From Rhodocyclales bacterium GT-UBC (GTDB lineage: Bacteria; Pseudomonadota; Gammaproteobacteria; Burkholderiales; Rhodocyclaceae): DNA of 64,000 nt. The position numbers and the translations under genes are program-made. Shown in pieces: positions 22,043-40,687 of this stretch (its first letter is position 1; each line of letters starts with the position of its first letter). Location: NCBI GenBank assembly GCA_003583745.1, contig QXPY01000003.1:294052-358051 (forward strand), written 5' to 3'. The notes under the pieces were generated by a model. That model was given only the letters and a program-made list of their open reading frames with translations, searched no databases and had not been told where the DNA came from.

Positions 22043-23294
22043 GTGCCTGATGGTCCTCGTTCCACGGCGCGACCTTGAGTAATAGCAGCATGCCGGGGAT
22101 GGCCAGCAGGGCGCAGAGCCAGAAAAAATTCAACCAGCCCATGGATTCGACCAGCCAGCCAGCCGAGGCATTGATGAAGGTGCGCGGTACCGCGGCGAGG
22201 CTTGTAAACAGGGCCATCTGCGTGGCTGTGTAGGCGGGATGGGTGGAGGCTGCAATGAAGGCGACGAAAGCGGCGGTGCCCAATCCGACTCCCAGCGCTT
22301 CGAGGCCGATGACAAAGGCCAGGGCAAACCGTTCGCTGCCACCGATTGTTGCATAGTGTCCTTGGGCGGAGAGCCAGGCGAAGCCGAAAATCGATAGCAG
22401 CTGGACGATGCCGAACAGCCACAAGGCCCTATTGATGCCGAGCTTGACCATCCACAAGCCGCCGAGCAGGGCGCCGATCACGGCAGGCCACAAGCCGGCG
22501 TGCTTGGCGATCAGGCCGATGTCGGTCTTGGTGAAGCCCATGTCCAGGTAAAACGGCGTAGCCAGTGCGGTGCACAGACTGTCACCTAGCTTGTAGAGAA
22601 AAATGAAGCCGAGGACGAGCAGTGCGCCGCGCCAGCCCTGGCGGCCGATGAACTCATGAAAGGGTTCGGTGACCGCTTGGCGTAAGGTCTTGGGGGCGCC
22701 CTTGACCAGCGGTTCGCTAACCAGCCAGCTCATGACCATGCCGGGCAGCATGAAGGCCCCGGTAATCCAGAACACTTCGTTCCAGGGCAGGCGGTCGGCC
22801 AGGATCAGCGATAAGGAGCCGGGCACCAGGCCGGCAATGCGATAGGCGTTGACGTGTACCGCGTTGCCGAGGCCGAGTTCGGCGTCGCTGAGGATTTCGC
22901 GCCGAAAGGCATCAACGGCAATGTCCTGCGTCGCTGAAAGCAGGGCCAGCAGGCTGGCCAGCCAGAGAATCGGCCAGATATTGTCTTTCGGGTTGAGTCC
23001 CCCCAGCGTGCCGATGGCGAAAAGCAGCCCGAGTTGGGTGATCAGCATCCAGCCCCGGCGGCGTCCGAAACCGGGCAAGCTGAAGCGATCGAGCAGCGGC
23101 GCCCAGAGAAACTTCCAGGTGTAGGGAAACTGAATCAAGGCGAAGAAGCCGATCGTTTTCAGATCGACCCCTTCGCTGCGCAGCCAGGCCGGCAGCAGGT
23201 TGAGCAGCAGGTAGAGCGGCAGGCCGGAAGAAAAACCGGTGAAGATGCAGATCAGCATCTTCCGCGTCAGCAGCGCGGCAAGCCAGGCCGGCAT
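22026..23294 (-). CDS. ampG: AmpG-type muropeptide transporter (MFS)
   Basis: A 422-residue MFS permease with about twelve membrane helices. AmpG-family features are FTGFSSGLPLYLLLNLLPAW near the start, FSLPGFGRRRGWM in the first cytoplasmic loop and DIAVDAFRREIL. It imports anhydro-muropeptides for recycling of cell wall. It starts at the metW stop (shared base at 23294) and so lies downstream of metX-metW. Confidence 0.9.
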   Translation of the reverse strand: MPAWLAALLTRKMLICIFTGFSSGLPLYLLLNLLPAWLRSEGVDLKTIGFFALIQFPYTWKFLWAPLLDRFSLPGFGRRRGWMLITQLGLLFAIGTLGGLNPKDNIWPILWLASLLALLSATQDIAVDAFRREILSDAELGLGNAVHVNAYRIAGLVPGSLSLILADRLPWNEVFWITGAFMLPGMVMSWLVSEPLVKGAPKTLRQAVTEPFHEFIGRQGWRGALLVLGFIFLYKLGDSLCTALATPFYLDMGFTKTDIGLIAKHAGLWPAVIGALLGGLWMVKLGINRALWLFGIVQLLSIFGFAWLSAQGHYATIGGSERFALAFVIGLEALGVGLGTAAFVAFIAASTHPAYTATQMALFTSLAAVPRTFINASAGWLVESMGWLNFFWLCALLAIPGMLLLLKVAPWNEDHQALSRAD

Positions 23295-23905
23295 CAGCGG
23301 TTTCGGCTCAGGCGATAGACGGCCAGGCTGCCGAGGAAATTGACGTCGCGGCTTTCGCTGCTGTCGACGCGATTACCCTGTTCGTCGAGGACATGTCGCT
23401 CGCGAATGATCAGGCCCATCTTGTCGCACAGCGCTTCGAAGTCGAGCAAGGTGAAGAAGCGGACGTTCGGCGAGTCGTACCACTCGTAGGGCAGGTCCTC
23501 TGAGACCGGCATGCGACCATCGAGGACGGAGCGCAGGTTCTTCCAGTAGGCAAAGTTGGGGAAGGAAACGACGGCCTCCCGGCCGACGCGCAGCATTTCC
23601 TGCAGGATGCCTTCGGTATGGCGCACCGTCTGCAGCGTGCGGGATAAAACGACATGGTCGAAGGCCTGGTCAGCGAACTCGTCGAGGCCTTTTTCCAGGT
23701 TGCCCTGAACGATGTTGATGCCATTCCTGATTGCCGCCAGGATGTTGGCGTCGTCGATTTCGACACCGACACCGTGGACGCCGCGGGTCTCGATCAGGTG
23801 CTTGAGCAGGGTGCCGTCACCGCAACCCAGGTCGAGCACACGATGGCCGGGCTTGACCCAGCCGGCGATGACGTCGAAGTCAGGTCTCCCCAGCGTATGT
23901 GTCAT
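23294..23905 (-). CDS. metW: MetW, methionine biosynthesis methyltransferase-like protein
   Basis: A 203-residue class I SAM-binding fold protein. It has motif [22 protein letters not shown], then [10 protein letters not shown] and the MetW stretch [10 protein letters not shown]. In proteobacteria MetW stimulates the homoserine acyltransferase MetX encoded next to it. It overlaps metX by 4 bases. An upstream in-frame extension to 24073 lies in metX and was rejected. Confidence 0.94.
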
Positions 23906-25026
23906 AGCTTGATGTTCCGCAGATAGGCATCGACGACGCCGTGATAATGGGCGTCTTCCATCAGGAATGAGTCGTGGCCGAAATTGAGATCGATTTCCGC
24001 ATACGAGACGTTGCGGTGGTTGGCCAGTAGCGCCGAGACGATTTCCTTCGAGCGGGCCGGCGTGAAACGCCAATCGGTGGTGAAAGAGGCGATCAGGAAG
24101 TTCGCCCGGGTACGGGCCAGCGTGGCGGTCAGGTTGCCGTTGTCCTCGCGCGACGGGTCGAAATAATCCAGTGCCTTGGTCATCAGCAGATAGGTATTGG
24201 CATCGAAATAGCCGGCAAACTTATCGCCCTGGTAGCGCAGGTAGGACTCGACCTCGAATTCGACATCGAAGCCGAATGAAAAGGCACTGTTGCGCAACTC
24301 GCGGCCAAACTTCTCGCCCATCTGGTCATCGGACAGGTAGGTGATGTGGCCGAGCATGCGGGCCAGGCGCAAACCGCGCACCGGCCGGGTGTTGTGTTCG
24401 TAGTAATCACCGCCATGGAAGTCGGGGTCGGTCAGGATGGCCTGGCGGGCGACATCGTTGAAGGCGATGTTCTGAGCCGATAGCTTGGGGGCTGCTGCGA
24501 TCACCACCGCGTTGCGCACCCGCTCCGGGAAAGTGATGCTCCAGCGCAGCGCCTGCATACCGCCCAGGCTGCCGCCGACTACTGCCGCCCAACTGTCGAT
24601 GCCGAGCCGGTCGGCCAAGCGCGCTTGGGCGTGAACCCAGTCATTGACGGCGACAATGGGAAAGCTCGCGCCCCACGGTTTGCCGGTTGCCGGATTGATC
24701 GACGAGGGGCCGGTCGAGCCATGGCAGCCGCCGAGATTGTTCAGGCCGACAATGAAGAAGCGATCCGTGTCGAGCGGTCGGCCGGGGCCGACAATATTGT
24801 CCCACCAGCCGACGTTTTCCGGCTGATCGGCGTAGTGGCCGGCGACGTGGTGGTGCCCGGAAAGCGCGTGGCAGACGAGAATGGCGTTCGATTTGGCGGC
24901 ATTGAGGGTGCCGTAGGTCTCGTAGACCAGATCGTAGGCCGGCAAAACGCCACCGCTGCGCAAATGCAGTGGCTCATCAAAGTGGGCGCGCTGTGACTGG
25001 ACGGCGCCGACGGATTGTCCTGGCAT
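23902..25026 (-). CDS. metX: Homoserine O-acyltransferase
   Basis: A 374-residue alpha/beta-hydrolase-fold enzyme that acylates homoserine (acetyl- or succinyl-CoA) as the first step to methionine. The nucleophile lies in [12 protein letters not shown], the acid in the ESYLRYQG to DYFDPS half, and the His in [11 protein letters not shown]. The ATG at 25026 has GGGA 5 bases upstream. A longer frame to 25194 would code through the terminator and riboswitch and was rejected. Regulated by the SAM-II element upstream. Which acyl donor is used is not clear from reading alone. Confidence 0.95.
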
Positions 25027-25042
25027 GCTGTTCCCGAAAAAC

Positions 25043-25089
25043 AAAAAACCCAGTGGCGTTGAAGAAGGCTTTTCAAACGCGAACTGGGT
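25043..25089 (-). terminator. Rho-independent attenuator in the metX leader
   Basis: On the minus strand ACCCAGT-TC-GCGTT pairs with AACGC-C-ACTGGG and is followed by TTTTTT. It sits between the SAM-II-like element and the metX ribosome binding site, only 17 bases before the start codon, and so would stop transcription before metX. It is the expected off-state of the riboswitch. Confidence 0.85.
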
Positions 25090-25091
25090 GG

Positions 25092-25149
25092 TTCCCGTTT
25101 TAGCTGCATTTATGTCGCGCCCGCAATCTGAGTTCAAATCGGCGCGGCT
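25092..25149 (-). ncRNA. SAM-II riboswitch upstream of metX
   Basis: On the minus strand the sequence closely follows the SAM-II (metA motif) core. CGCGCC (25146-25141) pairs with GGCGCG (25121-25116) to form P1. GATTTGAAC begins the first loop. TTGCG and TGCAG form P2, with changes from the SAM-II sequence I know that keep the pairs. The hallmark 3' segment ATAAATG then GCTAAAA is nearly identical, followed by GGG for the pseudoknot. SAM-II represses methionine genes when SAM is bound. The terminator follows directly. The class is best known from Alphaproteobacteria, so its presence here is notable. Confidence 0.85.
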
Positions 25150-25172
25150 GAAGCTTGTTTTCAGCGTGGGAA

Positions 25173-25201
25173 ACGATACCGAGCGGCAGCCCAAAAGTCA
25201 A
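25173..25201 (-). promoter_or_regulatory. Sigma70 promoter of metX
   Basis: On the minus strand TTGACT (25201-25196) and TATCGT (25178-25173) are spaced by 17 bases. Transcription would start near 25166, about 17 bases before the SAM-II element. Confidence 0.65.
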
Positions 25202-25251
25202 TGAATTACCGGTGTTTCGGCGGAAGGCCCGGGAGGTCAAGTTTTGTTAAA

Positions 25252-25887
25252 ATGGGAAAAAACAACCTGAATTGGACGAACGTGGCGACCAATCTTTTGG
25301 ATCAGCGGCGGCATCAGCGGATTCGTTTCAGCACTCCACCTGCGATCCGGATCGGCTATGCCGGCGAAATCGGTGAGGGTCAGATTGAGAATTTATCCTT
25401 GTCCGGCTTGATGTTCCGCAGCAATTTATCGCTCGATATCGGCCATACGGTAGGCTGCGAGTTTTCGGTTTTTGGTTCGTCCGTCATCGATGTGCCAGCC
25501 AGCGTGGTCAGTCGGGTGGGCGACTTGTTCGGGGCGCGTTTTCAGACGGGGCCGATCAACCAGATCATCATTGACGATGCCATCACCGGCGCATTGGCGC
25601 GCGGGCAGGCTTCAATCCTGACTGTCCACGATTTGGCCGGGCGCAAGGTGATGCGTATTTCCGGCGGTCTGAACGGTACCTTGCGCGGCGATTTCATGCA
25701 TGCTTTGACGCGGGTCGGGATCGAGGAGATCGATCTTTCTGCGGTGACGACGGTTGATCAGGCCGGACTGGCACTTTGCCTAGTAGCGACAAAGCACCAT
25801 TCAGTTAATCTTGGCTCCCAATCGGCTTGCTTTGCCGAAGCTTGGCAAAAGGCGCAAGTGACAATCAACGAGCCAGGCTGTAACTGA
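25252..25887 (+). CDS. PilZ-STAS fusion protein
   Basis: A 211-residue cytoplasmic protein. Residues 15-110 form a PilZ domain with the c-di-GMP-binding motifs QRRHQRIRF and NLSLSGLMF (the second close to D/NxSxxG). Residues 125-205 look like a STAS domain: VMRISGGLNGTLRGDFMHAL, then EEIDLSAVTTVDQAGLALCL, where the Ser/Thr pair aligns with the STAS phosphorylation region. The start is uncertain: ATG 25252 is used, but GTG 25282 has a closer GGA site and keeps both domains. It precedes the TonB receptor by 12 bases and is divergent from metX. Confidence 0.8.
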   Translation: MGKNNLNWTNVATNLLDQRRHQRIRFSTPPAIRIGYAGEIGEGQIENLSLSGLMFRSNLSLDIGHTVGCEFSVFGSSVIDVPASVVSRVGDLFGARFQTGPINQIIIDDAITGALARGQASILTVHDLAGRKVMRISGGLNGTLRGDFMHALTRVGIEEIDLSAVTTVDQAGLALCLVATKHHSVNLGSQSACFAEAWQKAQVTINEPGCN

Positions 25888-35544: not shown

Positions 35545-35571
35545 CGCTAAGGCTGCCTGGCCGTGCAGCCG

Positions 35572-35730
35572 CAATGATCTCCCGGCCGGTCTTCTGACTT
35601 GGATTCATCCGTCCGATGCGCCTTCCCGGATCGCTCCAGTGGCCTTGCATCGCCCGTCCTCCTTACAGCGCTGGGCACGTGGCGGAATTGCACCGCCTTC
35701 CCGATTCTCCCCGAGGGGCACCTGGAGACA
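35572..35730 (-). ncRNA. Cobalamin riboswitch upstream of bluB
   Basis: On the minus strand the conserved parts occur in the right order: AGGTGCC near 35723, the GGGAAG then GCGGTGCAATTCCGCC core, GCGCTGTAA, GGCCACTGG, and the B12 box AGTCAGAAGACCGGCC ending near 35580. The layout matches the AdoCbl/B12 riboswitch family (RF00174). It represses the bluB operon when cobalamin is plentiful. Confidence 0.93.
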
Positions 35731-35797
35731 TTTCCCGACCGGAGTCGGGCGGGGGCGATGGTGCCATAATTACGGACTTTTTTCAGCCTTGTCCGCC

Positions 35798-40419: not shown

Positions 40420-40448
40420 TTGCGCACCTTTCCGGCAAGCCGGATAAT
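40420..40448 (+). promoter_or_regulatory. Promoter of cobTSC
   Basis: TTGCGC (40420-40425) and GATAAT (40443-40448) are spaced by 17 bases. Transcription would start near 40455, just at the beginning of the riboswitch. Confidence 0.6.
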
Positions 40449-40454
40449 CGTCGC

Positions 40455-40612
40455 CGATTCGATAGAACGGAACACGGTGCAAATCCGTGGCGGGCCCGCC
40501 GCTGTAATCGGGGACGGATGTCGCGAAATACCACTGCCTATGGGGAAACAGACCCGGCGGGAAGGTGCGACGGACGGCTGATCCGAGAGCCAGAAGACGT
40601 GTCGAGTCAGTT
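40455..40612 (+). ncRNA. Cobalamin riboswitch upstream of cobT
   Basis: Conserved blocks occur in order: GATAGAACGG-AACACGGTGC, AAATCCGTGGCGGGCCCGCC, GCTGTAATCGGGGACGGA, CCACTGCC, GGGAAGGTGCGACGGACGG, and the B12 box GAGAGCCAGAAGACGTG (40585-40601). This is the B12 riboswitch family (RF00174). It lies in the 302-base gap between cobU and cobT. Confidence 0.95.
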
Positions 40613-40619
40613 GAGGCTG

Positions 40620-40687
40620 GAAGCCTGTGGACAGGGCTTCGCGACTGCGTTTGGACGACGCCGTCGCGAGGCCCTTTTGCATTTTTT
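40620..40687 (+). terminator. Antiterminator/terminator pair of the cobT riboswitch
   Basis: GAAGCCTGT-GG-ACAGGGCTTC (40620-40640) forms an antiterminator stem with one bulged G. Its 3' half shares bases with the terminator, whose 5' arm (40634-40649) pairs with the 3' arm ending GCCC at 40674: GGGC/GCCC, TCGCGAC/GTCGCGA and GCG/CGC. It is followed by TTTT-GCA-TTTTTT. The two cannot form together, so cobalamin binding should decide termination. Confidence 0.85.

Follow-up and report, generated by a model that had tools for sequence, protein, structure and literature searches.

The leader of metX lies on the minus strand of the window (the whole stretch of DNA analysed, 64,000 nt). Composed of a sigma70-type promoter, a 5'-terminal hairpin (P0), a SAM-II-type aptamer with one stem (P1) and a pseudoknot (P2), and an intrinsic terminator (Table 1). 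The metX gene is of the succinyl type by NCBIfam and is followed by metW and then by a gene of the AmpG family; the start of metW, placed from the profile match, probably overlaps the metX stop. The closest named genomes are those of Dechloromonas and Azonexus. P1, the AUAAAUG and GCUAAAA segments of the core and the GGG at 25096-25094 had been read by an earlier note on this DNA and were all found where it had put them.

Table 1. Features of the metX leader and the genes behind it, in positions of the window
Feature	Position	Strand	Sequence or description	Basis
Sigma70-type promoter	-35 25201-25196; -10 25178-25173	minus	TTGACT, 17 nt, TATCGT	
P0 hairpin	25165-25160 / 25152-25147	minus	GCUGAA/UUCAGC; 5'-terminal, adjoins P1	MFE fold
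SAM-II-type aptamer	25149-25085	minus	stretch in alignment A1	
P1	25146-25141 / 25121-25116	minus	CGCGCC/GGCGCG; 6 pairs	covariation
L1		minus	GAUUUGAACUCAGAUUGC	
Aptamer core	to 25094	minus	ACAUAAAUGCAGCUAAAACGGG	
P2 pseudoknot	C25132-G25094, U25131-G25095, C25130-G25096, G25128-C25097	minus		pair counts
P2b	25124-25123 / 25104-25103	minus	GC/GC	
Proposed antiterminator	25100-25096, 25094-25091 / 25084-25081, 25079-25075	minus	AAACG, GAAC / GUUC, CGUUU	partial-transcript MFE
Intrinsic terminator	25089-25083 / 25054-25048; 25080-25076 / 25060-25056	minus	ACCCAGU/ACUGGGU; GCGUU/AACGC	
Terminator U run	25048-25043	minus	U6	
metX	25026-23902	minus	homoserine O-acyltransferase	NCBIfam MetX_succinyl, 681 bits, cut-off 560
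metW	23294..23905	minus		TIGR02081, 247 bits, cut-off 189.5

The promoter is the one proposed in the earlier note and is the sole promoter-like site in 24800-25600, where shuffles give 0.4 expected. The same kind of promoter is present in 54 of 61 leaders of the window type, with a spacer of 17 nt in 54/54 (15-18 permitted). These 61 leaders are a group defined by sequence pattern, which also includes other genera (L106, L112, L117). From the distance to the -10 box, transcription would start at about 25167-25165.

P0 is a feature of the genus, set against the SAM-II consensus (RF00521). A stem of at least 5 bp adjoining P1 occurs in 48/48 distinct -10-to-P1 regions, against a mean of 8.2 and a maximum of 17/48 in shuffled sequences. 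This test was made on the 54 leaders with a promoter, the 7/61 without a recognised promoter standing outside it. The stem is present in 58/61 leaders, in 42 distinct sequences. By these comparisons the genus appears to have a covarying 5'-terminal hairpin, apparently new; any part it might play in folding or stability is conjecture.

The ribosome-binding region of metX (25036-25030, minus) repeats the CGGGAAC of the P2 3' strand, probably by chance, because many relatives have CAGGAAC there. A divergent open reading frame at 25201-25887 (plus) has no NCBIfam match; since the start listed for it falls across the -35 box, the true start is probably further in. Two cobalamin riboswitches are present in the window, at 35567-35740 (minus, 104.8 bits) and 40443-40620 (plus, 96.1 bits), both well above the Rfam cut-off.

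Identity of the aptamer

Matched by Rfam SAM_alpha (RF00521) at 25083-25155 (minus) with 30.3 bits and E 3.2e-4. The gathering score is 36, so that the score is formally below the threshold, an outcome which the earlier note had named as speaking against SAM-II. A cmscan of 3 kb gave four Rfam matches with E<=10, of which RF00521 is the best, and the window element is the best RF00521 match of its genome, the next reaching 22.4 bits. The consensus blocks GAUUUGA, UUGC and GCUAAA are retained in the cmscan alignment. The models RF01826, RF01727 and RF01726 (SAM-V, SAM/SAH, SAM-II long loops) were not among the matches with E<=10 in these 3 kb.

Because the score is under the RF00521 cut-off, membership was tested in the reverse direction. 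A covariance model, R1, was built from 33 beta-proteobacterial aptamers (alignment A1) with the window among the training rows; it gives the window, as one of those rows, 78.7 bits. Among genomes from the phylum's other classes, 60/299 pass the RF00521 cut-off, and the best 30 loci over it, presumably alpha-proteobacterial, were searched with R1. All 30 were recovered at the RF00521 site, with 20.0-43.1 bits; the runner-up match in the 92 kb of this test has 9.1 bits. Most of these scores are low (27/30 at 20-28.3 bits, within the range of a 26.4-bit match in the window's own genome that has no met gene), so the argument is carried by the exact position of the matches. Since this reverse search favours membership, the Rfam cut-off discriminates poorly in this case.

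P1 covaries. In A1, 96.5% of its cells are paired, with compensatory changes in two of the six pairs; in A2, which was aligned by fitting to the model, 91.4% are paired, with 79 double-change cells and a score of 0.258 against 0.085 when shuffled. P2 is short in the window, with 3-4 pairs, one of them G-U. Paired in 84.1% of cells in A1, the outer pair being formed in 17/33 rows. For permutation, 136 of 140 R1 matches were readable and gave 97 unique elements. The middle pair is formed in 64/97 of them against 40.3 when permuted (p 0.0005), as U-A, A-U, U-G, C-G, G-U or G-C, and the third pair in 48 against 36.7 (p 0.003); the first pair is nearly invariant, equal to permutations and uninformative on covariation. 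The sameness of the core among A1 rows is partly by construction, because most rows were picked by a pattern with a GAUUUG-like block, UUGC and GCUAAA.

Identity of the aptamer and covariation of P1 and P2 are results of computation, and the SAM-II-like aptamer of the earlier note is borne out by the 30/30 reciprocal recovery and by both covarying helices. As judged from sequence, the window element belongs to SAM-II in both structure and descent. SAM-II was described by Corbino 2005 (PMC1273637) with a promoter just before P1 and frequent terminators, and with a few copies outside alpha-proteobacteria. Shared with the window: one stem and a pseudoknot, the core, a promoter before P1, a terminator before a met gene. 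Differs from the RF00521 consensus in a shorter P2, an L1 shorter by 2 bases and a P2 3' side shorter by 4 bases. These departures in L1 and P2 are what would favour a SAM-II fold that senses a relative of SAM (SAH, methionine or a further SAM metabolite); that reading is improbable, since GAUUUGA, UUGC and GCUAAA are kept and the downstream genes make methionine and SAM. SAM is the presumed ligand.

The core is upstream of metX in 73/80 named relatives, as borne out by the comparison of metX leaders that the earlier note had proposed; an alternative count of 74 includes a chance GCUAAA of L111. Absent from the bases read upstream of metX in the other 7/80 named loci (L076, L094, L099, L105, L109, L111, L116), and the genomes of L094 and L116 (G461 and G462) have no R1 match at E 1e-3. 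That the leader is a plain attenuator or a decayed aptamer, with the terminator limiting metX constitutively, is very improbable in view of the 73/80 and of the covariation of P1 and P2 across the order.

Leyn 2014 (PMC4239095) described as new a pseudoknotted 'metXZ' element with a terminator, found in beta-proteobacterial leaders of metX or metZ. In the sections consulted, that paper presents the element without a ligand and limits SAM_alpha to Rhizobiales and Rhodobacterales, which is the ground for taking metXZ as a separate RNA class with a superficial likeness to SAM-II. Such a class has a very low probability. The loci share a metXW or metZ leader with a two-part pseudoknot and then a terminator, and the topology of P1 and pseudoknot is the same; reciprocal recovery and P2 covariation stand against separation, as do the beta copies that exceed the Rfam cut-off (L157, L161; 5/100 relatives, with 45/100 matching RF00521 at E 1e-3). 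Placement agrees as well: the metXZ element of Nitrosospira multiformis is before metZ (PMC4239095), and three Nitrosospira/Nitrosomonadaceae genomes have one R1 copy each, before a metZ-like gene (by eye), and none before metX. The metXZ element is probably SAM-II, matched by its published description. No report equating the two was found in a literature search with poor cover of subscription papers, a weak negative.

The plus strand opposite the aptamer has a weak match to RF02424 (25078-25146, 14.1 bits, cut-off 70), by which the functional product would be a plus-strand sRNA (Bp2_287). Least probable of the readings weighed, as the minus strand is the one to which promoter, terminator and gene order all point. 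In a chosen set of 20 genomes, RF02424 has eight matches in seven, and an R1 match lies opposite seven of the eight (L307-L313), including 3/3 over the cut-off; the eighth, L314, has no R1 match on the opposite strand. RF02424 comes from a 'Burkholderia sRNA' candidate, and in the RT-PCR of Bp2_287, as given in the consulted part of PMC3521395, cDNA was oligo(dT)-primed and the strand apparently not fixed. RF02424 overlaps the same element and differs in lying on the strand opposite to SAM-II; it is apparently antisense to SAM-II elements, which appears to be new.

Terminator and alternative folds

The terminator folds with -17.8 kcal/mol (z -2.5) and is equalled by 5/200 shuffles. Seven pairs, an asymmetric internal loop (UC/C), five pairs, a bulge, three pairs and an 8-nt loop. 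Present before the metX ribosome-binding site as the earlier note had it, though not perfect as that note said, given the internal loop and the bulge. The list of a terminator scan does not include it. The whole leader folds better than 199/200 shuffles (z -2.6).

Folds of the growing transcript were computed by MFE, which is blind to pseudoknots and kinetics. P0 and P1 form first and remain. GGG pairs with the terminator CCC in one partial transcript only, the one whose end is at 25083, and there as a 3-bp hairpin. From transcript end 25078 on, GAAC/GUUC replaces it, and AAACG/CGUUU is then added (25100-25091 with 25084-25075); when the transcript has reached 25073, the resulting antiterminator hairpin contributes -10.3 kcal/mol. 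The terminator wins over the antiterminator once its 3' arm is transcribed. Of the switch in the earlier note, GGG with CCC, the two strands are thus retained, and the GGG:CCC pairs themselves are reduced to this transient hairpin. AAACG.GAAC shares bases with the conserved GCUAAA strand as well as with the 3' strand of P2; pseudoknot and antiterminator are therefore mutually exclusive, and this exclusion, like the conservation of promoter and terminator, is a computed result.

The register AAACG.GAAC/GUUC.CGUUU is kept in 51/61 leaders of the window type and absent in 10/61; eight of the 51 have the partner GUUCACGUU in place of GUUCGCGUU. Mononucleotide-shuffle tests are weak and composition-bound, and strands were therefore swapped between genomes. 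In 62 leaders of the order the own antiterminator strands give -9.42 kcal/mol against -8.71 when swapped (p 0.0026), a modest signal; the fixed register is slightly better than swaps (p 0.034, same 62). Single-leader shuffle tests reach p<0.05 in 28/147 leaders, with a mean z of -0.94; an earlier set of 78 leaders has a mean z of -0.87. Among named leaders, 12/72 reach p<0.05 singly, and the mean z of the 25 metX leaders in the survey is -0.28.

Leyn 2014 guessed an antiterminator role for GC-rich regions of the metXZ element (PMC4239095). An antiterminator made of L1 and the P1 3' strand (CUCAGAUUGCGGG) against the terminator is unlikely here. It draws on an order-wide swap test (p 0.0014) and on AAGCUG, complementary to the CAGCUU of L1, in the terminator of 12/62 beta leaders; in the window its duplex does not stand out from shuffles (z 0.08) and P1 is paired in the partial folds. 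The P1 3' strand was also tried against UUCGCG of the terminator arm and rejected: the window duplex is no better than shuffles, and P1 stays closed in the folds. The antiterminator AAACG.GAAC/GUUC.CGUUU, as modelled by MFE, is the likely one in the window. The form of the antiterminator probably differs among families.

The reading preferred is that a SAM-II-class riboswitch attenuates metXW transcription, to which a probability of roughly 85% is given. The RNA would begin with the short 5'-terminal P0 hairpin from the conserved promoter and continue through P1 into the aptamer with its pseudoknot. SAM, when bound, would keep L1 and the strand GCUAAAACGGG in P2. P2 being held, the 5' arm of the terminator would be free, and the hairpin 25089-25048 would form ahead of the U tract. 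Transcription would then end before metX (OFF switch). Without SAM, AAACG.GAAC would pair with GUUC.CGUUU of the terminator 5' arm, CCC would be hidden in the loop, and polymerase would read on. We infer the OFF direction and the action of the antiterminator in the cell. A metZ SAM-II of S. meliloti (PMC9373788) is comparable: its aptamer comes with a terminator platform, as predicted there, and was examined in vivo; it differs in being alpha-proteobacterial. As an attenuator the window element would be of ordinary design; it is a divergent SAM-II and no beta-proteobacterial first.

Distribution, subtypes and a proposed regulon

R1 matches 296/399 genomes of the GTDB order at E 1e-3, a count that may include chance matches because R1 E-values are optimistic. 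SAM-II with a terminator in a betaproteobacterium, held to be notable in the earlier note, is on this count not rare, and SAM-II with terminators in beta-proteobacteria had been stated in 2007. Matches are trusted from about 30 bits upward. Two matches in the window's own genome have no met gene nearby: L149 (26.4 bits, E 1.9e-4) and L150 (22 bits, E 0.004). Most copies in beta-proteobacteria score below the cut-off of the standard covariance model.

A set of 78 genomes has 140 R1 matches, 105 of them upstream of met genes: 38 metX, 35 metZ, 21 metK, 11 metH. These counts say nothing on prevalence, because the genomes were picked for having matches. Of the metK-side matches, 19 are within 90 nt of the gene and two are 1.2-1.4 kb off, behind an HD-domain gene. 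The remaining 35 matches are upstream of none of the four genes. Seventeen of these are spread over nine leaders that precede a MATE transporter (judged by eye; Pfam checked for L213), and all nine leaders have a reading frame of 95-110 aa beginning M[FY]DC. Five are before metN-like ABC genes (L239, L256, L287, L288, L301; by eye, Pfam for L239). Twelve are without explanation (L210 x2, L276 x2, L284 x2, L215, L260, L293, L273, L302, L149). High-scoring elements are also seen before a PLP-dependent enzyme (PF00291, L222, minus) and a PaiB-like FMN-binding protein (PF04299, L136, minus); the L222 element completes the 35.

Two subtypes are distinguished, T-type, to which the window element belongs, and K-type. 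The K-type signature is GAGUUAA...GACAACUUGC...GCUAAAGCGUC. Among 19 K-type elements, 18 are before metK and one is before an HD-domain gene (L278). The outer pair of P1 is C-G, U-A or A-U, and P2 has G-C or A-U, with 98.4% of cells paired over the 19 elements; their alignment (A4) is without L270 (long L1) and L120 (T-type) and with L278. The window's own genome has such an element as its second R1 match (L148, 1501-1566, minus, 39 bits), about 30 kb beyond the window and 37 nt before the listed metK start. RF00521 does not report the L148 element; at E 10 it reports one of five such metK leaders, with 17.4 bits.

A terminator hairpin follows 72/80 elements with readable core before metX, metZ or metH, as against 1/15 elements typed K before metK. 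Four of 84 metX, metZ and metH elements were set aside, and seven matches overall have no readable core. The script takes the last GCUAAA and so misses the terminator of L120, a T-type before metK, which was found otherwise. In K-type elements, the 15 nt that begin with the P2 3' strand complement the Shine-Dalgarno/start region of metK, with -12.59 kcal/mol against -10.10 when swapped (n 18, p 0.00015; L120 and L278 left out). In this start-region complementarity the metK leader of the window's own genome ranks 8/18. The K-type would act via this segment. Position before metK with start-region complementarity is apparently new; neither a metK SAM-II in beta-proteobacteria nor the K-type signature was found in the literature, a weak negative given poor cover of subscription papers.

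In 10/10 tandem leaders examined, a T-type stands ahead of a K-type (L199, L203, L204, L212, L217, L224, L225, L230, L276, L278; typed by eye, two second copies being partial). The first eight, L199-L230, are before a small M[FY]DC frame and a MATE transporter (MATE by eye). Tandem leaders L128, L129, L142, L145 and L146 are outside the typed set. Forty-four tandem SAM-II examples have been reported (PMC9481103), in some of which a copy of the terminator type is followed by one that controls the RBS, and the T-then-K arrangement is therefore already known; the consulted part of that paper, which also covers SAM-II/SAM-V tandems, names no genes or taxa for the 44. The K-type here differs in occurring also alone before metK.

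Good odds are given to the view that the beta-proteobacterial SAM-II subtypes form one SAM-sensing regulon, in which the T-type would terminate metX, metZ and metH transcripts and the K-type would control metK translation. The wider value lies in a missed beta-proteobacterial regulon, in the K-type and in two annotation puzzles seemingly explained: the orphan metXZ element and the mis-stranded RF02424 probably merge into a well-studied riboswitch class. The switch proposed for the window is testable, as nucleotides of the pocket and of P2 double as the antiterminator strand. According to Leyn 2014 (PMC4239095), metY, metK and metNIQ of beta-proteobacteria are under no known methionine regulator. 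If true, the two-subtype regulon would make RF02424 a wrong-strand SAM-II and would fill this 2014 gap for metK and partly for metNIQ. If the K-type holds, SAM synthetase itself would be under SAM control in these bacteria.
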